DNA from: a virus
Length of the DNA: 38,902 bases
Virus record (IMG/VR): IMGVR_UViG_3300010388_000281
Coordinates: 1-38,902 of that record
Direction: 5' to 3' (one strand)
Shown here piece after piece: positions 1 to 38,902 of the stretch. The position numbers and the translations under genes are program-made. Position 1 is the stretch's first letter. Every line of letters starts with the position of its first letter. Below the pieces are notes generated by a model. It ran no database searches. It was not told where the DNA came from and saw nothing but the letters and a program-made list of their open reading frames with translations.

Positions 1-255
1 TTGCAGGTTGAGTATCCTAAGCAGTTGAAGCAACATCAGGCTCGTTTGTATGCGTTGTGGGCTGGTGTTGATGTTGAGTCTTTGCCCGCTAGTGTGCCTT
101 ATGGTTTGAAGAGTGAGTATCCTGAGCAGTTTTATGTTGGGAATGTGTTGGCTTATCGTCGTATGTTGGCTGATTTGCGTGGTTGGAATGTTAGTGATGA
201 GGAGTTGTTGAGTGTGCCTGTGGGTGATGTTCCGCCTACAAAAGAGGTGAAATAG
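1..255 (+). CDS. Hypothetical protein, possibly truncated at its 5' end
   Basis: The frame is open from the first base of the window and stops at 253-255, giving 84 residues. Base 1 begins a TTG codon, so this could be the real start, but no upstream sequence is available to show a ribosome binding site and the gene may begin before the window. The protein is rich in Tyr, Trp and acidic residues and ends in a Pro/Lys tail; I recognise no domain. Codon choice (G/T-rich third positions) matches the next dozen genes, so it belongs to the same left-arm block of small genes. Function unknown. Confidence 0.65.
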   Translation: MQVEYPKQLKQHQARLYALWAGVDVESLPASVPYGLKSEYPEQFYVGNVLAYRRMLADLRGWNVSDEELLSVPVGDVPPTKEVK

Positions 256-259
256 CGTT

Positions 260-325
260 ATGGTTTCGTTATGTAAATGTGTAGCGGTTGGCGTTGGCGG
301 TGTGTTAGCGTCTGTTTGTAAGTGA
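260..325 (+). CDS. Possible 21-residue peptide
   Basis: A very short frame starting with ATG follows an AGAGGTGA stretch at 243-250 that could act as a ribosome binding site, with about nine bases of spacing. The predicted peptide is small, hydrophobic and contains a Cys-Lys-Cys motif near its start and another Cys near its end. It fills part of the otherwise empty 95-base gap between two genes. It could equally be chance; only its position and spacing support it. Confidence 0.22.
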   Translation: MVSLCKCVAVGVGGVLASVCK

Positions 326-350
326 ATAAGTATCGGGAAAGGATACGGAA

Positions 351-548
351 ATGGGTAAGAAAATGTTTGTTGTGTTTGAGCCTTATGAGATTTGGTATCG
401 GACTGAGGTTTTGGCTGGTAGTGCTGAGGAGGCTTTGGCTAAGGCTAAGCACCCTAGTTTTATTGGTGAGTGGGAGTTGGATTTGGAAACGGGTTCGGCT
501 TTGGATGCTGATTGGGAAGTTTATAGTGATGAGGAGGAGGACAAGTAA
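351..548 (+). CDS. Small acidic protein, unknown function
   Basis: Sixty-five residues with a good AAAGGA ribosome binding site at 338-343, which sits in the loop and 3' arm of a small GTATC/GATAC hairpin (330-346). The middle section (Val-Leu-Ala-Gly-Ser-Ala-Glu-Glu-Ala) looks like a short amphipathic helix of the type seen in small phage proteins that modify host enzymes, but no family is recognised. The C-terminus is strongly acidic. The stop codon overlaps the next start by one base, so the two are translationally coupled. Confidence 0.82.
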   Translation: MGKKMFVVFEPYEIWYRTEVLAGSAEEALAKAKHPSFIGEWELDLETGSALDADWEVYSDEEEDK

Positions 549-769
549 TGACTAAAGAGCAGTTTATTGAGGTTTTGCAGAAGTATGTGCCTGATGGTGA
601 GGAGATTGCTGTTGGTAGTTGGTGGCATAAGGGCGATGTTGAGGATTGGCACGGTGAGCCTTTGTCTGCTGAGCAGTGGGAGCGTTTTGTTTATTGGTAT
701 GAGAAGTATCAGGATGGTTCGGCTGATGCTGATGAGGCGTTGTCTTATGCTTTGAAGGAGGGAAACTGA
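548..769 (+). CDS. Small Trp-rich acidic protein, unknown function
   Basis: Seventy-three residues starting with the ATG that overlaps the preceding stop (TAATG). The AGGAGGA run at about 532-540 is the ribosome binding site, inside the end of the upstream gene. The protein carries seven aromatic residues clustered around positions 25-55 and is acidic. No motif is recognised. Its stop again overlaps the next start by one base, continuing a coupled chain of small genes. Confidence 0.82.
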   Translation: MTKEQFIEVLQKYVPDGEEIAVGSWWHKGDVEDWHGEPLSAEQWERFVYWYEKYQDGSADADEALSYALKEGN

Positions 770-927
770 TGGATGCTGATTTGTTTTGGCGTGTTTGGTC
801 GGTGTTGGCTGTTGTTGTGTTGATGGCTGTGCCGTTTGTGGCTGGGTTGCCTGTTCCGTTGTTGTTTGGTGTTGTTTTGTTGGCTGGTGGGGCTGTGTTG
901 GCTGTGTTGCAGATTGGGCGTGGCTGA
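769..927 (+). CDS. Small two-helix membrane protein
   Basis: Fifty-two residues, too short for most gene callers. The ATG overlaps the previous TGA (ATGA) and a GAAGGAGG ribosome binding site lies at about 755-762. After a short polar start (Met-Asp-Ala-Asp) two hydrophobic segments follow, roughly residues 9-28 and 30-47, separated by a Gly-Leu-Pro-Val-Pro turn, and the protein ends in Gln-Ile-Gly-Arg-Gly. This predicts a hairpin in the inner membrane. It is not in the lysis cassette, so its role is unclear; host takeover or superinfection exclusion are guesses. Confidence 0.72.
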   Translation: MDADLFWRVWSVLAVVVLMAVPFVAGLPVPLLFGVVLLAGGAVLAVLQIGRG

Positions 928-1085
928 TGTCTGAGTTTGCTTTTGATGAGGTTTGGCAGGCTGGGTATGAGCAGGCTGTGATTGATGATACTAAGAAGGT
1001 GGAGTTGGCGTTGCACATTGTGTCGTATTTGGTGAAAGAGAATGAGCGTCTAACTAAGTTGGTTGGTGGTGTGTCGAATGAGTGA
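927..1085 (+). CDS. Small helical protein, unknown function
   Basis: Fifty-two residues. I chose the ATG at 927, which overlaps the preceding TGA by one base, over upstream in-frame starts that would run through the membrane-protein gene. The sequence is mostly amphipathic helix (acidic N-terminal half, then a Val-Lys-Glu-Asn-Glu-Arg-Leu segment that could coil). Unknown function. The next gene starts inside its last codons. Confidence 0.72.
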   Translation: MSEFAFDEVWQAGYEQAVIDDTKKVELALHIVSYLVKENERLTKLVGGVSNE

Positions 1086-1197
1086 GAGTTTGGAGCGTTG
1101 CGACCATACTGACATTGCGGTTGTTCCTTGTCAGGATTGGGCTTGTGAGGATGTTTTGCGTGTTTGTCGTGATTGTGGAGAGGATGTGGCTGAGTGA
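1078..1197 (+). CDS. Small Cys-rich putative zinc-binding protein
   Basis: Thirty-nine residues. The ATG overlaps the end of the previous gene by eight bases. Five cysteines (C8, C18, C23, C30, C33) and His10 are packed into a very short chain, with C30 and C33 in a Cys-Arg-Asp-Cys-Gly knuckle typical of zinc ribbons. It is probably a minimal metal-binding fold. Its neighbours include three more short Cys-paired proteins. Its size makes it easy to miss, but overlap on both sides and codon use support it. Confidence 0.65.
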   Translation: MSESLERCDHTDIAVVPCQDWACEDVLRVCRDCGEDVAE

Positions 1198-1415
1198 TTG
1201 AGCGTGTTGGTTCTGAGGATACTATTGTAATTTTGCCTGATGGTGATTACATTACGGGTGAGGTTATGGTGGTTGATGTGTCTGGTTGGTCTAGTAAGGA
1301 TTTGTTTGCTTTGGATGATTGTCCGAGGTCTGAGCGTGCTGGTTTGGCTCAGATGATTGATGCTATCCGTAAGGCTGAGGGTATGTCGGTGGTTGAGATT
1401 ACTATTCGTAAGTAA
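1194..1415 (+). CDS. Hypothetical protein
   Basis: Seventy-three residues from a GTG that overlaps the preceding TGA (GTGA), with AGAGGA upstream at 1178-1183. The N-terminal half has alternating hydrophobic residues consistent with a small beta structure, and the C-terminal half looks helical. No recognised family. It is the last gene before a 148-base region with two hairpins, so it may end a transcriptional sub-unit. Confidence 0.78.
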   Translation: MIERVGSEDTIVILPDGDYITGEVMVVDVSGWSSKDLFALDDCPRSERAGLAQMIDAIRKAEGMSVVEITIRK

Positions 1416-1419
1416 AGGA

Positions 1420-1449
1420 AACGGGGCTACCCGTTTGGATAGCCCCGTT
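1420..1449 (+). promoter_or_regulatory. Perfect 10-bp hairpin between small genes
   Basis: AACGGGGCTA (1420-1429) pairs perfectly with TAGCCCCGTT (1440-1449) around a ten-base loop, starting five bases after a stop codon. No T-run follows, so it is not a classical intrinsic terminator. It may be an RNA processing or stability element, or a pause site upstream of the next small gene. Confidence 0.55.
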
Positions 1450-1466
1450 GGAGGGAAAGGATGTAA

Positions 1467-1571
1467 ATGAGGAACTGTTTTGTGGCGACCAAGCCACAAT
1501 ATTATTCAAGCATAGGTTTTGGGTTTGTCAAGGTGGCTTGCCCGAATGGAAATGGAGGAAATGATGAGTAA
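1467..1571 (+). CDS. Possible 34-residue peptide or leader ORF
   Basis: An ATG at 1467 is preceded by GGAGGGAAAGG (1450-1460), an unusually strong ribosome binding site, and opens a 34-codon frame ending at 1571, eight bases into the next gene. The peptide has no recognised motif and ends in an Asn/Gly-rich tail. A hairpin lies inside it, so it may be a translated leader controlling the following gene rather than a functional protein. The strong binding site is the main support. Confidence 0.35.
   Translation: MRNCFVATKPQYYSSIGFGFVKVACPNGNGGNDE
1480..1499 (+). promoter_or_regulatory. 7-bp hairpin inside leader region
   Basis: TTGTGGC (1480-1486) pairs with GCCACAA (1493-1499) around a six-base loop and is followed by an AT-rich stretch without a clean T-run. 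Together with the hairpin at 1420-1449 it makes the 1416-1563 region strongly structured. Could be a weak terminator or attenuator. Confidence 0.45.
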
Positions 1572-1950
1572 GGATTTGAAAGAGTTTGAGGCTTTGGTGG
1601 CTGATGCTAAGGCTAAGTTGATTGCTGGTCGGGCTGTTGTTGAGCCTGTGAGCGGTAAGGCTTCGGTTGAGGCTGAGGATGCTGTTTCGGCTAATGAGTT
1701 GTTGGCTGAGCGTTCTGCTATTGAGGATGAGATAAAGTTGTTGACGGCTCGTAAGGGGCAGATTGATGGCATTTTTAGGACTGCTATTGGTGATGCTGAT
1801 GAGTTGTTGGTGCATGGTGCTAAGGTGGCTAGTGTGTCTCGTTGGCGTGAAACCCGTGTTGTTTCTGATGCGGTGAAAGAGTTGTTTCCTGTGGTTGATT
1901 ATCCTGAACTGTATAAGCGTGAGGATAAGAGTAGGCTGACTATTCACTAA
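1564..1950 (+). CDS. Helical protein with a nuclease-associated C-terminal tail
   Basis: 128 residues. The ATG at 1564 is preferred because the GGAGG at 1553-1557 is then spaced by six bases; an ATG three bases earlier is also possible. The first ~80 residues are Ala/Glu/Leu-rich and helical, probably coiled coil. The C-terminal ~45 residues (a Trp-Arg-Glu-Thr segment, then Glu-Leu-Tyr-Lys-Arg-Glu and a basic end) resemble the small tail domain I recall at the end of some phage YqaJ/RecB-like exonucleases. Here it is a separate protein lying 3 kb upstream of a Cas4-type nuclease (4561). An accessory recombination role is inference; moderate certainty only. Confidence 0.78.
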   Translation: MSKDLKEFEALVADAKAKLIAGRAVVEPVSGKASVEAEDAVSANELLAERSAIEDEIKLLTARKGQIDGIFRTAIGDADELLVHGAKVASVSRWRETRVVSDAVKELFPVVDYPELYKREDKSRLTIH

Positions 1951-2183
1951 TGTTTGAGTTGCGTGAGAGGTGTAGTTGCGGTGCTGATTTCAGTATCGTG
2001 GATGCGCCTCTCACGGACGCTAAACGCCTGTTGAGGGAGTGGCGTAGGGTTCATGTGTGTGAGCAGGTTGAGCCTGAGGTTTCTATGGTTGCTTCTACTA
2101 CTAATGCTTTGGTTGAGCGTAGTGATAATGTTTTGGGGTTCAGATGGTCTGAGCCTGTTGAGTTTGAGGAGGATAAGAAATGA
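1950..2183 (+). CDS. Small zinc-finger-like protein
   Basis: Seventy-seven residues, start overlapping the previous stop (TAATG). Near the N-terminus C8 and C10 (Cys-Ser-Cys-Gly) are matched by H35 and C37 after an Arg-rich helix, a plausible C-x-C...H-x-C zinc site that I recall in small actinophage proteins. The C-terminal 35 residues look disordered and acidic. DNA or protein binding is possible; no specific function known. Confidence 0.8.
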   Translation: MFELRERCSCGADFSIVDAPLTDAKRLLREWRRVHVCEQVEPEVSMVASTTNALVERSDNVLGFRWSEPVEFEEDKK

Positions 2184-2329
2184 TGATTTGGGTTCGGGTG
2201 AATGATGGTGTTCGCCGTTATGTTGATGACCGCATGATTTCGCCGTGTCGTGAGTGTGGCGAGGTTTTGTCGGTGTGTTGGGCGAGTGTGTGTGATGGTA
2301 GTCGTGGTATGGAGGTGAAGAGTAAGTGA
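2180..2329 (+). CDS. Small four-cysteine putative zinc-binding protein
   Basis: Forty-nine residues starting with ATG four bases before the end of the upstream gene, with GAGGAGGATAAG as ribosome binding site. C23 and C26 form a Cys-Arg-Glu-Cys-Gly knuckle and C33 and C38 can complete a zinc site. The N-terminal 20 residues look like two short beta strands. Overlaps the next GTG start by four bases. Function unknown. Confidence 0.68.
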   Translation: MMIWVRVNDGVRRYVDDRMISPCRECGEVLSVCWASVCDGSRGMEVKSK

Positions 2330-2475
2330 GTGGGGAGTCGTGGTTGGAGCCTCCTGAGTTTGAGGGTTGTGTTTGTGGGGCTGATGGTGAGCCTGATGAG
2401 TGTGTTTGTTTTGATGAGCCGTGTGATGGTTGCGGTTTTGATGGTTGTATTTGTGATGCGGATGAGGAGAAGTAG
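2326..2475 (+). CDS. Acidic protein with eight cysteines in CxC/CxxC pairs
   Basis: Forty-nine residues from a GTG overlapping the previous TGA (GTGA). Eight cysteines occur as four close pairs: C15/C17, C26/C28, C33/C36 and C41/C43, embedded in a chain very rich in Asp and Glu with almost no basic residues. The spacing is regular enough to suggest two metal sites or a small cluster; it resembles a metallothionein or a ferredoxin-like minifold in composition only, not by any family I can name. The stop codon is directly followed by the next ATG, so it is fully embedded in the operon. Confidence 0.68.
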   Translation: MSGESWLEPPEFEGCVCGADGEPDECVCFDEPCDGCGFDGCICDADEEK

Positions 2476-2709
2476 ATGACTGTTGGTGAGTTGGTTAGCG
2501 GGTTGGATTATATTCGTGATGTTTGCGGGTATAAGGACATTGACATTGCTTTTGATTTGGTGTGGGTGTTTGACGATTTTTATGTGAATGTTGTTCGTGA
2601 GGGTGTTATTGTTGGTGAGCATTTGTCTGTGAATGGCGATTTTGAGCGTGTGTGGGCTTGGTTGGAAACTAATTATCCTGAGGTTGATTGGGGTGAGCAG
2701 GAGTTCTGA
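2476..2709 (+). CDS. Hypothetical protein next to the helicase
   Basis: Seventy-seven residues starting immediately after the preceding stop codon, with GAGGAGAAG as ribosome binding site. The sequence alternates acidic and aromatic residues (Trp, Phe, Tyr), suggesting a small alpha/beta fold with a hydrophobic core. It overlaps the helicase start by one base (TGATG), so it is probably made in step with it. No family recognised. Confidence 0.82.
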   Translation: MTVGELVSGLDYIRDVCGYKDIDIAFDLVWVFDDFYVNVVREGVIVGEHLSVNGDFERVWAWLETNYPEVDWGEQEF

Positions 2710-4232
2710 TGGGGTTAGTGGGTGAGGTTTTGTTTCCGTATCAGGTTGTTGCTGCTGAGCGTATCGCTGACCAAGGTAGGTTGTTGTTGGCTGACCAGCC
2801 TGGGTTGGGTAAAACTCTTGAGGTGTTGGGTGGGTTGGAGTTGGCTGGGTTGTTTGATAAACCTAGTGCGATTTTGATTGCTACGCCTATTGTGAATGCT
2901 CAGACTACTTGGCGTGATACTTTGGAGCGGTTTGTGCGTAAATACCATGACATTGTGGTTGTTGATGTGTCGGTGGGTAGTGCTACTGTGAAAGCGAAAG
3001 CGTTCAAGGCTGGTGTGCGGGAAAGCATTGAGACTGGGTTGCCAACAGTTTTTTTGGTAAATCATAATGGTTTGGATTGGGTGAAGGGTAAGCATCGTGT
3101 TGTTGGGTTTGATGACATCAGGTTTGATGCTGTTGTTGTTGATGAGAGCCACATGGTGTTGCCTATTCGTGTTGGTGGTGGGGTGACTAATTTTTGGTCT
3201 GGGTTGTCTCGTTTGCAGATGCCTAAGGGTTGTGTGCGGGTTGCTGTGTCTGGTACGCCTGACCGTGGGAAGTTGGAGAATAGGTTTGGGACTTGGCGGT
3301 TTTTGTTCAATGAGACTATTGGGCATGATTTGTGGGCGTGGTTGGGTGATTGGTTCTTTATCATTGACCAGCGTGTGTCTAAGTCTCGTGTTGTGAAGAT
3401 GGTGGCGGGGTTGCGTAAGGAAAAGGAGTGGGTTGAGCGTGACCGTGCTTGGATGTTGCGTCGCACTAAGGCTGAGGTGTTAGCCCAGTTGCCTCCTAAA
3501 CGTTATGTGGATGTTGAGGTTGATTTGTCGGGTGGTGAGCGTGCGAAGTATTTTGGTGCTCAGATGGTTTATGAGGAGCAGTTGCGTGGTGGTGACCATT
3601 CGGGTGCGATGACGTTTGCTTTGCGTAGCCGTCAGTTGGCTACGTGTGGTTGGGATGAGGCGTGGGAGCCTGTTGTTGGTGGTGCGTCTGCTAAGTTGGA
3701 GTGGTTGGTTGAGTGGTTGTCTGAGCGTGGGTTTGTTGAGCGTGATGACATGGCTGATAACACGGCGAAGGTTGTTATTGTTTCGCAGTTCAGTAAGGTT
3801 TTGCATTGGGTTGAGAGGGAGTTGAAGAGTGTCGGGATTGATGCTGTTGTGTTGGATGGGTCTGTTGGTAGCGGGCAGCGTGCTAACATTCAGAACGATT
3901 TCCAGACGGGCAATCTTCGTGTTGTGTTGCTTAGCGGTTCTATGGGTGTTGGTATTAACTTGGACGCTGCAGACGACCTGATTTTGTTGGATTTGCCGTA
4001 TGACCCTGATAGGGTTGAGCAGATTGAGGACAGGGTGCATCGTGCATCTTCTAATCATCAGGTTACGATTTGGAATGTTGTTGCTAGGGATACCATTGAC
4101 CAAGTGATTTTGGAGCGTGTGTCTAGCAGGTATAAGATTACTCGTGAGTTGTTGGATGGTAGTCGTGGTGTAGATTTTGCTCGTGAGGTTATGGCTATTG
4201 TGGCTAAGGAAAAAGTGGAGGAAATGGAATGA
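2709..4232 (+). CDS. SNF2-like superfamily 2 DNA helicase/ATPase
   Basis: 507 residues. The ATP-binding motif I Gln-Pro-Gly-Leu-Gly-Lys-Thr is at residues 30-36, motif II is Asp-Glu-Ser-His at 145-148, motif III is Ser-Gly-Thr-Pro at 181-184, and the second RecA-like lobe has motif V (Gly-Val-Gly-Ile-Asn-Leu) and motif VI (a Gln-x-x-x-Arg-x-x-Arg pattern, about 436-446). This is the SNF2/RapA-like layout without extra chromatin domains, as in many phage helicases. It likely moves on duplex DNA during replication or recombination, consistent with the Cas4-type nuclease two genes downstream. Its stop overlaps the WhiB gene start by four bases. Confidence 0.92.
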   Translation: MGLVGEVLFPYQVVAAERIADQGRLLLADQPGLGKTLEVLGGLELAGLFDKPSAILIATPIVNAQTTWRDTLERFVRKYHDIVVVDVSVGSATVKAKAFKAGVRESIETGLPTVFLVNHNGLDWVKGKHRVVGFDDIRFDAVVVDESHMVLPIRVGGGVTNFWSGLSRLQMPKGCVRVAVSGTPDRGKLENRFGTWRFLFNETIGHDLWAWLGDWFFIIDQRVSKSRVVKMVAGLRKEKEWVERDRAWMLRRTKAEVLAQLPPKRYVDVEVDLSGGERAKYFGAQMVYEEQLRGGDHSGAMTFALRSRQLATCGWDEAWEPVVGGASAKLEWLVEWLSERGFVERDDMADNTAKVVIVSQFSKVLHWVERELKSVGIDAVVLDGSVGSGQRANIQNDFQTGNLRVVLLSGSMGVGINLDAADDLILLDLPYDPDRVEQIEDRVHRASSNHQVTIWNVVARDTIDQVILERVSSRYKITRELLDGSRGVDFAREVMAIVAKEKVEEME

Positions 4233-4561
4233 CTGGCAAGTTGATAAATGACGATAATGATTATCGTGAGTTGATGCGGTTGTATTCTGCGTTGGATAAG
4301 GAAGAGTGGCAGGTTCCTTGTGTTCAGGCACCTGACTTGTATTTTCCTGAGCGACCTGAGCATTTGAAAGTTGATGTCAAGGGTGATTTGGCTTTGGCTA
4401 ACATGGCTAAGGATGCTTGTTTGGATTGTCCTGTGATGATGTTGTGTTTGGATGTTGCTGTGAAAACTCGTCGTGAGTATGGTATTTGGGGTGGCACGAA
4501 TTGGCATGAGCGTAAGGCTATTATTCGTGAGCGTAAAAGAAGAAGTGAGAAGGGCAAATAA
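4229..4561 (+). CDS. WhiB-family iron-sulfur transcription factor
   Basis: 110 residues. The four cluster cysteines are C31, C64, C67 and C73 (the C-x2-C-x5-C spacing of the family), followed by the Gly-Ile-Trp-Gly-Gly turn at 85-89 and a basic C-terminal tail for DNA contact. WhiB proteins bind a [4Fe-4S] cluster and work with the primary sigma factor in Actinobacteria; phage versions are known to redirect host transcription. This is the clearest host marker in the window. It sits between helicase and nuclease genes with four- and one-base overlaps, so it is expressed with the replication module. Confidence 0.93.
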   Translation: MTGKLINDDNDYRELMRLYSALDKEEWQVPCVQAPDLYFPERPEHLKVDVKGDLALANMAKDACLDCPVMMLCLDVAVKTRREYGIWGGTNWHERKAIIRERKRRSEKGK

Positions 4562-5298
4562 TGGCTACCGTAAAAATTATCAACGCCAAACAGGATGCGA
4601 CTGATGATGTTGCTGTTGCTGCAGCACATAACTGGATGTCCCGCATCACAGAACTTTTCCTAACCGAACGCTCATTCCAAACCATTATTGGTATCAGTGA
4701 GGTTGGGTCTGATTGTCGTAAGTGTGTTGCCCGCAAGTTGGCTGGGAAACCTAAGAAACCTGATGGTTCTTGGTACCCGTTCATTGGTACCTCTGTGCAC
4801 CAAGCGTTAGAGGATGGGTTTGCTCGTTGGCCTGATGACTACAAGTTAGAGGGTCGTATTGATGTGCACGAATACAAGTCGTTGAAACTTGGTGGTTCGT
4901 GCGACATGTTCGCCTATCAGGCTGGTGTGGTCAACGATTGGAAAGTTGTTGGTGAGCGTGCCCTGAAAGAGGCTGCCACTGGCAAAATCAAAAACCAGTA
5001 TCGCATTCAGGCTATGCTGTATGGTCTTGGATGGAAAAGAAAAGGTTTCGATGTTACGCATGTCGCATTGACATTCTTACCTCGTGATGTAGATTTATCA
5101 AACGCTCAAGTTGTTATGTTGCGTTATGATGAGGCTGTTGCTCTTGAAGCGTTGGCAGCGTTGGAGGTTATGATTGATGCTGCAGAAATTATTGGTTGGG
5201 ATGCGGTCATTGACCGTCAACCTAAGGCTTCTTTTTGTTGGGACTGTAAAAAGTTTGAGCAAGAAGAAAACGTCAACGACATTTCGTCGTTGATTTGA
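4561..5298 (+). CDS. Cas4/RecB-type PD-(D/E)XK exonuclease
   Basis: 245 residues. Visible active-site elements are His80, Asp115 (Gly-Gly-Ser-Cys-Asp), Asp126-x-Lys128 (the D-x-K core) and the Gln-x-x-x-Tyr helix at 150-154. Cysteine pairs C52/C55 near the N-terminus and C226/C229 near the C-terminus match the four ligands of the Cas4/AddB-type [4Fe-4S] cluster. Such enzymes resect DNA ends for recombination or genome processing. It follows the WhiB gene with a one-base overlap and precedes a putative ssDNA-binding protein, forming a recombination set. Bases 4580-4690 are richer in A and C than the rest of the gene. Confidence 0.9.
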   Translation: MATVKIINAKQDATDDVAVAAAHNWMSRITELFLTERSFQTIIGISEVGSDCRKCVARKLAGKPKKPDGSWYPFIGTSVHQALEDGFARWPDDYKLEGRIDVHEYKSLKLGGSCDMFAYQAGVVNDWKVVGERALKEAATGKIKNQYRIQAMLYGLGWKRKGFDVTHVALTFLPRDVDLSNAQVVMLRYDEAVALEALAALEVMIDAAEIIGWDAVIDRQPKASFCWDCKKFEQEENVNDISSLI

Positions 5299-5340
5299 AA
5301 ATAAGAAAAGCAAGAAAACTAAGTAAAGGAAAATAAAAAC

Positions 5341-5955
5341 ATGGTTGACATGAACATTATGTTGCCAGACCCAAACAGTCTTTTGACTGCTCAGTCTGTG
5401 CCAAGCATCTCATTCAAGGATGCAAAGGTTGGCGATGCGTACACTGGTACCATCACTAACTTGGAAACCGCTCAGGTTCGTAACTTTGAGACGGGCGACC
5501 CAGAGTATTGGGAAGATGGTAACCCTAAGTTGCAGATTGTTGTCACTCTTGCAACTGACTACCTTGACGGTGATGTTGAGGGTGATGATGGAACTCGTAA
5601 GGTTTACCTGTTCGGTCAGAAGTTGCAGGCTGCTAAGCAGGCAATGAAAGAAGCAGGTGTTGCAAAACTTGAGAAGGGTTTTGTTTTCACTATCAAGTTC
5701 GCTGGTGAGAAGCCTTCATCTAACAAGAAGTACAACAACGTGAAGTTGTATGAGATTACTCTTGCTAAGGGTGCTTCGAACCCAGCAGTGGATGCTCTTC
5801 TAGCGTCAGGAGCCACTGAGGTTGCTGACAAGTTGACCCCTGAACAGTATGACAAGGCGAAGAAGTTGGAAGCAGCAGGTTTTGTTGCTGAGGAAATCGC
5901 CTCAACTATGGGTGTCAACAAGTATGCTGTTGTGGCTGCTCTAGAACTCATCTAA
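5341..5955 (+). CDS. Putative single-stranded DNA-binding protein
   Basis: 204 residues with ribosome binding site AAAGGA at 5327-5332. Residues ~25-130 alternate in the way expected for an OB-like barrel (Gly-Thr-Ile-Thr strand, acidic Asp-Gly-Asp loops, later Tyr/Val/Lys strands), and the last ~40 residues form a helical segment resembling a small HTH (Gly-Phe-Val-Ala-Glu-Glu-Ile-Ala). I recall similar proteins in actinophage replication modules next to Cas4-like nucleases. The ssDNA-binding assignment rests on that context and the predicted fold, not on a signature motif. It is followed by a strong terminator. Confidence 0.82.
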   Translation: MVDMNIMLPDPNSLLTAQSVPSISFKDAKVGDAYTGTITNLETAQVRNFETGDPEYWEDGNPKLQIVVTLATDYLDGDVEGDDGTRKVYLFGQKLQAAKQAMKEAGVAKLEKGFVFTIKFAGEKPSSNKKYNNVKLYEITLAKGASNPAVDALLASGATEVADKLTPEQYDKAKKLEAAGFVAEEIASTMGVNKYAVVAALELI

Positions 5956-11905: not shown

Positions 11906-14178
<2,273 letters not shown>

Positions 14179-14179
<1 letters not shown>

Positions 14180-36088: not shown

Positions 36089-36609
36089 TCAAGCACCTTA
36101 CCTTCCAAATCCTCCAACGACCCATCATTCAAAACCGTCTCATCAAAAACAAACCCAGCCAAAGCAGACTCAGACACATGCCCATTAACAACACCAACAC
36201 CAGGACGAACAACATTCCAAACAACACCACCACCCCGACGAATAGCCTCCGCCTCATTAGGAAACCGCACATCCGTAAAAACAACACTCTCATCGCCCAA
36301 CCCCCTAAACGCCTGCGAAACCCAAAAATCCTCACCAAACATCTCACGCCCAACATCCGTACCAAAACGCTGCAACAAATCCCTCACACCAGGAGCACGC
36401 ACCTTCAAACCCTCCCAAGAACCCAACAAATACAACGCATCCATCAACGGCATCACACCATTCACCGTATCCACCAACGGATTCAAACGACACAAAGCCT
36501 GACGCATCGGCGTCGCAAAACTACGCCTCACAAAACCCTGCGACACCAACACAGCCCCCACCGAATCCTTACCCGAACGAGCAAACCCCGCAAGTCCAAC
36601 ATCAACCAT
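36064..36609 (-). CDS. Deoxynucleoside monophosphate kinase
   Basis: 181 residues. P-loop Gly-Phe-Ala-Arg-Ser-Gly-Lys-Asp-Ser at 8-16 and the Asp-Val-Arg-Phe-Pro-Asn-Glu motif near 113-119 identify the phage dNMP kinase group. It would phosphorylate dNMPs to dNDPs for DNA synthesis. It overlaps the HTH regulator gene's end by one base, so it is second in this operon. Confidence 0.88.
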   Translation of the reverse strand: MVDVGLAGFARSGKDSVGAVLVSQGFVRRSFATPMRQALCRLNPLVDTVNGVMPLMDALYLLGSWEGLKVRAPGVRDLLQRFGTDVGREMFGEDFWVSQAFRGLGDESVVFTDVRFPNEAEAIRRGGGVVWNVVRPGVGVVNGHVSESALAGFVFDETVLNDGSLEDLEGKVLECLMKLEN

Positions 36610-37145
36610 TACAAATCCTTCCCAGAAGGATTTGTTTGACCCAAAGCCGAAGGCTTCGGGGCACGTTTTAGCCCTTCTAAAGCAATTAGGTACTCCGAAC
36701 TCAAACCCAACGCAGAAACCAAACGCCCAGCCAACACATCCCCCATCGCCTCAACACGACCCTCCTCAAACTCACGCACAACCGCAGGATTCAAACGCAA
36801 CAACGACGCAAACGCAGTCACCGTCGGAGCAAACTCACGACGCCACTGACCAAAACTCCCATAATACTGACCCAACGTATAAGGCGGAATCAACAACAAA
36901 TTCTCCGCAGACGGCTTCAACCTCGGCCTAACAGGAGCATCCCACCATTGGAGCACCTCACTAAGAAGTTGCTTCGGGTCATCACTCAACACAGCCAAAA
37001 TCCGCTCACTAGGATGCTTAGTCCTACCATCCTCAACAGCAGTAACAGCAGAACGCTGCACACCAGCCAAAGACGCCAACTTATTCTGCGACAAACCTTT
37101 TTGGATTCTCGCCAAACGAATCGGGTGGTCAGATATACGAGCCAT
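36609..37145 (-). CDS. HTH (XRE) regulator with two DNA-binding-like domains
   Basis: 178 residues if started at the ATG of 37145; an open frame 12 codons longer exists (to 37181), but a TATTAT box ends nine bases before 37145 and would lie inside it. The first helix-turn-helix spans ~9-48 (Leu-Ser-Gln-Asn-Lys-Leu-Ala-Ser-Leu-Ala-Gly, then Ser-Ala-Val-Thr-Ala-Val-Glu) and a second, weaker HTH is at ~110-156. It is the first gene of the leftward operon and is divergent from the rightward early-type genes, the classic position for a repressor or switch protein. It may regulate itself through the nearby palindrome. Confidence 0.87.
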   Translation of the reverse strand: MARISDHPIRLARIQKGLSQNKLASLAGVQRSAVTAVEDGRTKHPSERILAVLSDDPKQLLSEVLQWWDAPVRPRLKPSAENLLLIPPYTLGQYYGSFGQWRREFAPTVTAFASLLRLNPAVVREFEEGRVEAMGDVLAGRLVSALGLSSEYLIALEGLKRAPKPSALGQTNPSGKDL

Positions 37146-37154
37146 ACAACCATC

Positions 37155-37160
37155 ATAATA
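37155..37160 (-). promoter_or_regulatory. -10-like box of the leftward operon
   Basis: TATTAT on the - strand, nine bases before the ATG at 37145, with TTGCAA 15 bases upstream as a possible -35. The short distance implies a leaderless or near-leaderless mRNA. Drives the regulator, kinase, small terminase and lysis genes. Confidence 0.5.
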
Positions 37161-37170
37161 GACAACTATC

Positions 37171-37204
37171 TGATTTTGCAAATTTCAAGGAGCGATGCTA
37201 GATA
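37171..37204 (+). promoter_or_regulatory. Operator-like palindrome and rightward promoter
   Basis: TGATTTTGCAAATTTCA (37171-37187) is an imperfect palindrome centred on TTTGCAAA. TTGCAA (37176-37181) and TAGATA (37199-37204), 17 bases apart, resemble a rightward promoter. The palindrome overlaps both divergent promoters, an ideal site for the HTH protein. The gap 37205-37291 holds nothing else I can name. Confidence 0.4.
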
Positions 37205-37291
37205 AGAGGGGACGGCTGGAATGTCGGTACAACATCGCAGGTTGTAGATTTGTTCTTGTCGGGCAGGGTGCTCGGCAGTTAGGGATAATAA

Positions 37292-37519
37292 ATGTCTGTA
37301 AATGTTCGTATTACTTATGAGGTTGCTTTGACTGACACTGATGAACTGCTCGGTCTGGCTGATAGTGCCTTTACTTACAGGGCGCACAAGGCTCTGATGG
37401 ATTACATGATTGCCATGCGTTTAGGTGGTGCAGGTCTAGCCCCGATGCCTGATGGCTATGGTAAGGGCGTGGATGCTATCTTGACGTTCCCAAACAAAAC
37501 CAAGATTGAGGTGAAGTAA
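37292..37519 (+). CDS. Hypothetical early-type protein
   Basis: Seventy-five residues with AGGGA ribosome binding site six bases before the ATG. Mixed alpha/beta with a long middle helix. First gene of the right-end rightward block; stop overlaps the next start (TAATG). No family recognised. Confidence 0.8.
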   Translation: MSVNVRITYEVALTDTDELLGLADSAFTYRAHKALMDYMIAMRLGGAGLAPMPDGYGKGVDAILTFPNKTKIEVK

Positions 37520-37827
37520 TGGCTAGGTTGCGTGGCAGTCTTGTCTGCGATAGTTGCGATGCCTACTTCGATGGCGACTTGGCTACCATTATCGGTGCCA
37601 ATGATGCCCTCGCTGCAACCCTACGCAACCCCGCTAACCGCAAGCAGGTGCAGGACTTTTGGTTGTGCACCGAGTGCGCCCCCAACTACATCGGTGGTGC
37701 TGAGAACTGGTTTAGCGAGGTTGTTTGGGCTGATGACCCTGTATGTGATGAATGCGAGGAGGACTATGTGGATGAGTGGGGCCACGTCTGCGATACCTGC
37801 GATGCAGCGATGAGTGATAATCGCTGA
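37519..37827 (+). CDS. Double zinc-ribbon protein
   Basis: 102 residues with four Cys-x-x-Cys pairs: C10/C13, C50/C53, C76/C79 and C91/C94, enough for two zinc sites. Very acidic outside the knuckles, so protein rather than DNA binding is more likely. Its stop codon is the first base of the structured repeat at 37827. Function unknown. Confidence 0.82.
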   Translation: MARLRGSLVCDSCDAYFDGDLATIIGANDALAATLRNPANRKQVQDFWLCTECAPNYIGGAENWFSEVVWADDPVCDECEEDYVDEWGHVCDTCDAAMSDNR

Positions 37828-37906
37828 GAGTTATCCCCTGACCGCCCTGAGCATGGCGTAAAACTGCTCATTACTCATGCCCGAAAAACCCTGCGGGTTT
37901 AGGGGA
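37827..37906 (+). repeat. Structured repeat element, copy 1
   Basis: Bases 37827-37863 are identical to 38841-38877. Two exclusive hairpins are possible: CGCC (37843-37846) with GGCG (37855-37858), or TGAGCA (37848-37853) with TGCTCA (37865-37870). A further hairpin, AAACCC-TGC-GGGTTT (37886-37900), follows, and TCCCCT (37834-37839) can pair with AGGGGA (37901-37906) to close a branched structure. It begins at the stop codon of the upstream gene. Confidence 0.7.
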
Positions 37907-37951
37907 CGGGTGGAGTGTGTGTGGCGTGTAGTGCTGGCGTAAATTGGTATC

Positions 37952-37970
37952 ACTAGCAACGGTTGCTAGT
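37952..37970. repeat. Perfect 8-bp palindrome before a small gene
   Basis: ACTAGCAACGGTTGCTAGT lies three bases before the TAGGGAG ribosome site of the next gene. As DNA it is a typical dyad operator; as RNA it is a hairpin next to the ribosome binding site. The rest of 37907-37951 shows no gene. Confidence 0.65.
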
Positions 37971-37987
37971 AGTTAGGGAGTATCAAA

Positions 37988-38212
37988 ATGTATGGAGATA
38001 ATGACGCATTGACTAACTTGCAGCGTCGTGTGCGACGGTTGGCAGATAGCCACGGTGCAAGCGAGAATGCGCTGCGGGATGATAAGGAGTTGCTGATTAT
38101 GTTGCTTAGTGGCGACATGGCATCTGCTGAGGCTCGTATTGTTAGCGATTATGCGTATTGTGAGGAATGCGATGATAACCACGGTGTTTGCGAGATGGCA
38201 GGTGTGAACTAA
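37988..38212 (+). CDS. Small protein with a CCHC-like cluster
   Basis: Seventy-four residues with TAGGGAG upstream. Helical N-terminal part rich in Arg (Leu-Gln-Arg-Arg-Val-Arg-Arg-Leu), then C58, C61, H65 and C68 near the C-terminus, an arrangement compatible with one zinc knuckle. Nucleic-acid binding is possible. Overlaps the next start by one base. Confidence 0.78.
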   Translation: MYGDNDALTNLQRRVRRLADSHGASENALRDDKELLIMLLSGDMASAEARIVSDYAYCEECDDNHGVCEMAGVN

Positions 38213-38388
38213 TGGATGGGCTAAACAAGGACACACCTATTGCGTTCGACATCTATGAGCGCAAAGAGATGATGGCTAACGGCGAGGCAGGGAGTGTCTA
38301 CACGGACATTCAGGATGCTATCGCTGATGGTGATTACCAAGCATTCGAAGATTATTTTGGGGACCAGGACCCGTTCGAATTCTTGTAG
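38212..38388 (+). CDS. Small acidic protein
   Basis: Fifty-eight residues; the ATG at 38212 overlaps the previous stop (TAATG) and is preferred over an in-frame ATG at 38188 inside the upstream gene. Strongly acidic, Asp-Tyr-Phe-Gly-Asp-Gln-Asp-Pro end; could mimic DNA. Followed directly by the third version of the repeat element. Confidence 0.75.
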   Translation: MDGLNKDTPIAFDIYERKEMMANGEAGSVYTDIQDAIADGDYQAFEDYFGDQDPFEFL

Positions 38389-38422
38389 GCGTCACCACCT
38401 GAGCAGGTGGCTAAAAGGCTCA
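38389..38422 (+). repeat. Structured repeat element, diverged copy 3
   Basis: Directly after the TAG, CCACCT (38395-38400) pairs with AGGTGG (38405-38410); alternatively TGAGC (38400-38404) pairs with GCTCA (38418-38422). The CTGAGCA core and the TAAAAGGCTCAC end match copy 2 (38861-38885) while the outer stem differs in sequence but still pairs. Confidence 0.55.
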
Positions 38423-38452
38423 CCACACAAAACACTATGAAGGGATACAGAA

Positions 38453-38842
38453 ATGTTGGAATTTGAAACCGCAATAAAGATGGAGTTGTCGTCGGACTGC
38501 ACCTGCGAATACTATGACGACGAGGACAACCTAGTGCCTAGCAATGACTGCTGGGGATGCTGGGATGATAGCGCAGCATACTTCAATGATGAGTTTCTGC
38601 CTCTATGGCTGAAGGCTAAAGGCTTGACCGATGAGGACATGTTCAGAATTGATGGGTATGCGATGGGTTGGATGCGCCAGAATGGCAGCGCCGACCTGAC
38701 CGCTGATAAGGTATTGGATGCGTTGACTTTGCGAGGCGACTTCAGGTTGACGTTCACGCTTGATGGTGGCGTCCTGCGAGGCATGCGTTACAGTCACGAT
38801 GAGCCTACTGGTGCATCGTTTGTGTTCACACCTATGCAGTAG
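38453..38842 (+). CDS. Hypothetical protein with two cysteine pairs
   Basis: 129 residues with AAGGGA upstream. C16/C18 and C33/C36 can form a metal site in an acidic N-terminal region; the C-terminal two thirds look alpha/beta (Gly-Tyr-Ala-Met-Gly-Trp, then Phe-Thr-Leu-Asp-Gly-Gly-Val). No family recognised. Stop is followed at once by repeat copy 2. Confidence 0.8.
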   Translation: MLEFETAIKMELSSDCTCEYYDDEDNLVPSNDCWGCWDDSAAYFNDEFLPLWLKAKGLTDEDMFRIDGYAMGWMRQNGSADLTADKVLDALTLRGDFRLTFTLDGGVLRGMRYSHDEPTGASFVFTPMQ

Positions 38843-38902
38843 AGTTATCCCCTGACCGCCCTGAGCATGGCGTAAAAAGGCTCACTTTTCATGCCCTGCG
38901 GG
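38841..38902 (+). repeat. Structured repeat element, copy 2, cut by window end
   Basis: Starts in the stop codon and keeps CGCC (38857-38860)/GGCG (38869-38872) versus TGAGC (38862-38866)/GCTCA (38880-38884), then CCC-TGC-GGG (38894-38902). The 37-base core equals copy 1; the following part is related but nine bases shorter. The closing strand seen in copy 1 would lie outside the window. Confidence 0.68.

Follow-up and report, generated by a model that had tools for sequence, protein, structure and literature searches.

Thirty-seven bases recur exactly in a virus genome fragment, each time directly behind a gene, and the locus raises the question of what such a sequence does immediately after a stop codon. 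The window examined here is the whole 38,902-nt stretch of an IMG/VR record, which is a linear fragment. A sequence-only reading had located the two copies, had placed the start of each inside a stop codon and had described looser similarity further on. The first two points were borne out exactly, and the similarity was found to span 56 nt at 91% identity without gaps (37827-37882 against 38841-38896). No dinucleotide-shuffled sequence matched the repeat's first 20 bases, even with three mismatches allowed. The flanking genes had also been called unrelated, and gene duplication dismissed as an explanation, which agrees with the absence of homology between the 102-aa and 129-aa proteins encoded before the two copies (best BLASTP E 9.7); the window genes flanking the copies gave no Pfam and no PHROG match. 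A third, diverged copy (69-81% over 26 nt), which that reading had missed, was found at 38389-38422. The genes and repeats concerned are:

37519-37827, plus strand: 102-aa gene, upstream of copy 1
37827-37863, plus strand: exact 37-base repeat, copy 1, starting at the last base of the stop TGA (37825-37827)
38212-38388, plus strand: 58-aa gene, upstream of the third (type A) copy, with the stop TAG at 38386-38388
38453-38842, plus strand: 129-aa gene, upstream of copy 2
38841-38877, plus strand: exact 37-base repeat, copy 2, starting inside the stop TAG (38840-38842)

The window contig falls within an actinophage-like virus family, and its terminase is about 46% identical to those of Arthrobacter phages; a polymerase/primase gene is common to 22 contigs. 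A close relative (contig L004, kinase 88% identical) has this spacer a single time, matching at 35 of the 37 bases, and the third copy is orthologous there as well. Comparison with this relative suggests that about 2.6 kb separate the equivalents of the window's two ends there; the contig end at 38902 falls within the repeated spacer and cuts off the rest of the copy-2 spacer. It is proposed that the two exact copies derive from one early-operon spacer by duplication, either recent or followed by homogenisation. Two separable motifs recur in the early operons of relatives, CORE (CCUGAGCA...UGCUCA) and LEAD (GGGGACGGCTGGAAT). In the window, copies 1 and 2 comprise CORE, a small hairpin and then LEAD (the last seen for copy 1), and in the third copy a ribosome-binding site and a start codon come after CORE. 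Elsewhere in the window, GC skew is very strong (about 0.5) at 1-4000 and, from 6 kb onward, close to zero or below it, and a tail fibre at 11906-14179 (minus strand) has an Mtd N-terminal domain and collagen repeats.

The conserved core was found to be a 28-nt H-type pseudoknot, comprised in order of S1 NNNC, L1 C, S2 UGAGCA, L2 N, S1' GNNN, L3 NNAAAC and S2' UGCUCA, in which loop 3 is A-rich. In the window, the knots and the hairpin are placed as follows:

37843-37870, plus strand: copy-1 pseudoknot, from sequence and covariation
37843-37846 with 37855-37858: its stem 1, CGCC with GGCG
37847: its loop 1, C
37848-37853 with 37865-37870: its stem 2, UGAGCA with UGCUCA
37854 and 37859-37864: its loops 2 (U) and 3 (UAAAAC)
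37886-37900, plus strand: small hairpin AAACCC-UGC-GGGUUU, between the copy-1 pseudoknot and LEAD (GCCC-UGC-GGGGC in L004)
38395-38422, plus strand: pseudoknot of the third copy (diverged, type A), stem 1 CCAC/GUGG and stem 2 UGAGC/GCUCA, 6 nt past its TAG, with a ribosome-binding site and ATG (38453) downstream; orthologous in L004
38857-38884, plus strand: copy-2 pseudoknot, stem 1 CGCC/GGCG and stem 2 UGAGC/GCUCA

Stem 1 changes on both sides, from CGCC/GGCG and CCAC/GUGG in the window to CGUC/GACG, CGAC/GUCG, GCAC/GUGC and AGUC/GACU in relatives. Viral contigs were scanned with the pattern CTGAGCANNNNNNNWAACTGCTCA, in which stem 1 was left unspecified. The sequence-only reading would have been refuted by an element without copies elsewhere; the pattern matched at least 120 viral contigs, and nearly all of the 136 sites among the matches listed pair at three or four of the four stem-1 positions. 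All four positions pair in 76 of 101 distinct viral elements, against a mean of 8.5 and a maximum of 19 in 2000 shuffles, in counts that, like those for placement below, ignore relatedness among contigs. In bacterial and archaeal genomes, the same pattern gave 66 of 119 listed sites with at least three paired positions and a one-base loop 1, the others being chance-like.

Stem 2 is kept in the same way. When it was left free, at loci that were mostly pattern-selected, 207 sites paired at 6/6 and 4/4 positions, compared with three in a reversed control, and two-sided compensations occur in several contigs (UGGACA/UGUCCA, UAGACA/UGUCUA, UAAGCA/UGCUUA, UGGCUA/UAGCCA, UGAGUA/UACUCA and UGAACA/UGUUCA). 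A 51-row alignment has 98.2% of cells paired, as opposed to 25-36% with the partner strand slid; its rows were hand-chosen, and it therefore illustrates the pairing and does not test it. Both interleaved helices (a5' b5' a3' b3') are thus kept by compensatory change, as is characteristic of the H-type class. Plain minimum-free-energy folding of the three copies gave ordinary energies (z 0.25, -0.98 and -0.84), because the knot is absent from the folding model. A helix around the spacer as a whole, CCCCUGA/UUAGGGG, was also considered; it fits the window and L004, fails in most relatives, and was dropped. In one viral contig (L203), the closing C-G of stem 1 is exchanged for G-C. At 2300-5700 (minus strand) of that contig, several knots with stem 1 NNNG/CNNN lie between small genes and are followed by U-runs.

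The knot was found in cultured phages that include Roseobacter SIO1, Arthrobacter Molivia and Lactobacillus phig1e. In all, 47 phage records have knot matches, some of them marginal, and Lentibacter ICBM1-3, Celeribacter P12053L, Lactobacillus AQ113, Mycobacterium Labelle, Nostoc NMeng1, Synechococcus S-EIV1, crAss-like cr7_1 and the thermophilic phage D6E are also among them; the phages infect many bacterial phyla, and the sites are nearly always unannotated. Its gene contexts include ribonucleotide reductase (RNR)-knot-glutaredoxin, portal-knot-scaffold and, in Molivia, SSB-knot-tRNA-Gly. The knot variants tried gave no match in E. coli genomes, and an exact 17-mer scan of viral contigs gave one chance match inside an unrelated contig.

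Rfam 15 scans of the window and knot-carrying loci at permissive thresholds, and of 19 further loci at the gathering threshold, matched no family on the element. The knot is a large family that is uncatalogued in Rfam. A search by the literal element sequence, in a literature of partial coverage, gave nothing relevant among the papers listed, and the chance that the knot has already been described elsewhere is put near one in five. The STAXI motif, a tandem array of two to three simple pseudoknots (PMC2864571), resembles it as a simple pseudoknot near DNA-manipulating, integrase and antirestriction genes, but the present knots are single and the Rfam scans were without match. Small structured RNAs of phages are usually found singly and tied to one gene; this knot recurs, with strong covariation.

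The position of the knot was then read against the genes around it. With ORFs called mechanically, 51% of viral knots begin 4-12 nt past the stop of an ORF of at least 60 aa on the coding strand, a lower bound because shorter ORFs were left uncounted; random positions within these loci fall in that interval in 1.9% of cases, and the opposite strand gives 0.7%. The distance from stop to knot has its mode at 5-6 nt, with none at 0-3 nt, and the three window knots begin 15, 6 and 14 nt past their stops. Both the pseudoknot and its post-stop placement are consequently well supported by the sequence comparisons, and probably very close to certain.

This placement bears on several of the roles that could be imagined for the repeat. 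Mycobacteriophage stoperators are directional intergenic repeats bound by the phage repressor, and LEAD, which adjoins the knot and is a directional repeat in early gaps, is reminiscent of them. A DNA-level element (a repressor stoperator, an origin or a packaging site) or a chance repeat is nevertheless barely conceivable for the core, which shows the covariation of an RNA knot among unrelated phages and occurs after stops on the coding strand only; for the core, this reading is largely refuted. A replication or packaging signal, one of the suggestions of the sequence-only reading, is unsupported, since the knots keep to stop codons and to a single strand.

Readthrough and frameshift pseudoknots of luteoviruses and murine leukaemia virus have an A-rich loop 3 and lie 5-8 nt from the stop. 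The present knots share their topology, loop 3 and stop distance, and could by analogy with the murine leukaemia virus gag-pol pseudoknot be stimulators of recoding, by readthrough or frameshifting. Of 92 stops that precede knots, however, 63 are TAA; tandem stops are frequent, and no consistent in-frame continuation was found past knot-associated stops. A leaky stop with a conserved coding extension was thus lacking at these strong or tandem stops, and recoding is extremely improbable for that reason.

Termination of transcription was likewise considered, in the form of a pseudoknot-based terminator or attenuator. U-runs do follow some knots, as in L203, and TTTTT occurs within the first 12 nt after the knot in 19 of 196 cases. 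About 90% have no U-run, however, the next gene often begins within 60 nt, and downstream intrinsic terminators are not enriched (4 of 135 knots against 38 of 587 ORF ends). An intrinsic terminator is a GC hairpin followed by a U-tract, a pattern that the knots do not show as a rule, and a role of this kind is very unlikely. Of the proposals in the sequence-only reading, a functional element, supported by the covarying structure and its placement, and an RNA role near 3' ends both stand, along with the argument against gene duplication; termination control through an intrinsic terminator is unsupported, like the replication or packaging signal, and nothing in the analysis points to an RNA decoy.

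Support for a role near 3' ends comes from what follows the knot. A tRNA starts within 25 nt downstream, at a distance of 3-13 nt, in 21 of 135 knots (16%), against 4 of 587 ordinary ORF ends (0.7%), with the qualification that these are not independent events because most share a tRNA-Asp context. In a Polynucleobacter MAG contig (L353), four knots follow four ORFs. Two of them, at 1772-2140 (minus strand), lead straight into hammerhead ribozymes of type III, of which Rfam scores one above and the other below its gathering threshold; self-cleavage there would leave 5 nt behind the knot. The remaining two are followed by other hairpins. In one viral contig (L155), a hatchet ribozyme (Rfam RF02678) was seen at 2975-3112 (plus strand), with a knot about 600 nt away. 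RAGATH-18, the IS607 TnpB guide RNA, was considered on account of the hammerhead neighbour and dropped, being about 73 nt long and of another architecture (PMC11061315). Theta ribozymes are self-cleaving phage RNAs tied to tRNA 3' processing (PMC10879173); the knot resembles them as a phage RNA element adjoining tRNA genes with a bearing on transcript processing, but it shows no sign of self-cleavage and is found behind an ORF, on the 5' side of the tRNA.

In the tRNA and hammerhead cases, cuts are possible a few nucleotides downstream of the knot, and a block to 3'-to-5' exonucleases is therefore suggested; the evidence for such a block, drawn from the position of the knot between stop and tRNA or hammerhead, is circumstantial. 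The knot may be a cis-acting element at the 3' boundary of the mRNA that guards the ORF, stop codon included, once the message has been cleaved further downstream, a reading to which about even confidence is attached. It would act in cis to mark the 3' boundary of the upstream ORF and would start just past a ribosome seated on the stop codon. A distance of 5-6 nt past the stop is about the nearest at which a terminating ribosome need not melt a structure. The polycistronic message would be cut downstream by RNase P at a tRNA, by a self-cleaving ribozyme, or by an endonuclease acting in the tail, whose first 9 nt behind the knot are poor in G, and the knot would stop 3'-to-5' exonucleases before the stop codon erodes. 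More tentatively, and with somewhat less than even confidence, the knots may be regarded as an unrecognised, widespread phage and bacterial RNA class of 'stop-guards', portable 3' caps about 5 nt after stops that avert non-stop mRNA when messages are cleaved. Protection of 3' ends, if true, would account for the survival of compact phage operons that are cut at tRNAs or ribozymes, and would offer a short portable stabiliser for synthetic operons.

Many knots have just the next gene behind them and no known site of cutting. In translation insulation, the main rival to 3'-end protection, the knot would sit at the ribosomal mRNA entry site with the stop in the A site, and block post-termination sliding and reinitiation or tune coupling. 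The very tight spacing of 5-6 nt is in keeping with this, as are the many knots that precede the ribosome-binding site and ATG of a next gene. Insulation is nevertheless unlikely, if to be taken seriously, given that knots followed by tRNAs or hammerheads have no immediate downstream start codon and that stem 1 by itself is just 3-4 bp.

A knot ahead of a gene could also be an operator, bound by a phage or host protein or by a ligand that controls the downstream gene, in the manner of T4 gp32 on gene 32 mRNA or of preQ1 riboswitches. The preQ1-I riboswitch of bacterial mRNA is also a small H-type pseudoknot whose loop 3 is A-rich. The present knot differs from it in its conserved core, in having no Rfam match and in following the stops of unrelated genes. 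The autoregulatory pseudoknot of T2/T4 gene 32 lies 67 nt before the start codon and is bound by gp32 (PMC3014915). It shares with the present knot its occurrence in phage mRNA, the compact H-type topology and the unstructured stretch that follows, which here often includes a ribosome-binding site. Whereas the gene 32 pseudoknot is far upstream of one gene, the present knot occurs in multiple copies, its flanking genes are unrelated and differ from copy to copy, and its position is set by the upstream stop, not the downstream start. The regulated gene of a gene 32-type operator encodes the binding protein, and an SSB gene was found adjacent to the knot in Molivia only; an operator is quite unlikely.

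A further class was found in bacterial chromosomes of several phyla, where about 12-13 knots overlap or abut the stop of a 20-aa cysteine micro-ORF (L233, L239, L241, L262, L298, L308, L319, L322, L332 and L336). These micro-ORFs have a strong ribosome-binding site, and their peptides gave no Pfam or NCBIfam match above cut-off. In stand-alone examples such as MKRFMIPRTAHCDEGCRILS*, the UGA stop forms part of the knot, a point in favour of translation insulation; a selenocysteine reading was examined and found unsupported. Five tested genomes of several phyla with a micro-ORF knot have one knot each. Several micro-ORFs are followed by an intrinsic terminator, and this class counts against a pure stability role for the knot, as extra 3' protection looks redundant there.

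The second motif, LEAD, is separate from the knot. Its two positions in the window, and the regulator gene near the first, are:

36609-37181, minus strand: HTH transcriptional regulator gene, divergent, at the start of the early operon
37208-37222, plus strand: LEAD GGGGACGGCTGGAAT, at the presumed early transcript start, downstream of TGCTAGATA and the divergent HTH gene
37902-37916, plus strand: LEAD GGGGACGGGTGGAGT, at the end of the spacer behind copy 1

In this phage family (relatives L086-L098 and the window), an early operon or genome contains up to four copies of LEAD. The first lies at the presumed transcription start after the divergent HTH gene, as TGCTAnnTA and then AGGGGACGG. A search for PF00940 as an indication that LEAD is a phage RNA-polymerase promoter gave no match in eight relatives, and the control was likewise without match. 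Later copies lie in intergenic gaps, often right after an intrinsic terminator, and have no obvious -10; all are directional, along transcription. From its sequence and placement, LEAD may serve either as an RNA leader signal or as a site of the operator or stoperator kind; it shares with mycobacteriophage stoperators its directional, intergenic repetition, and the HTH protein is the putative binder.
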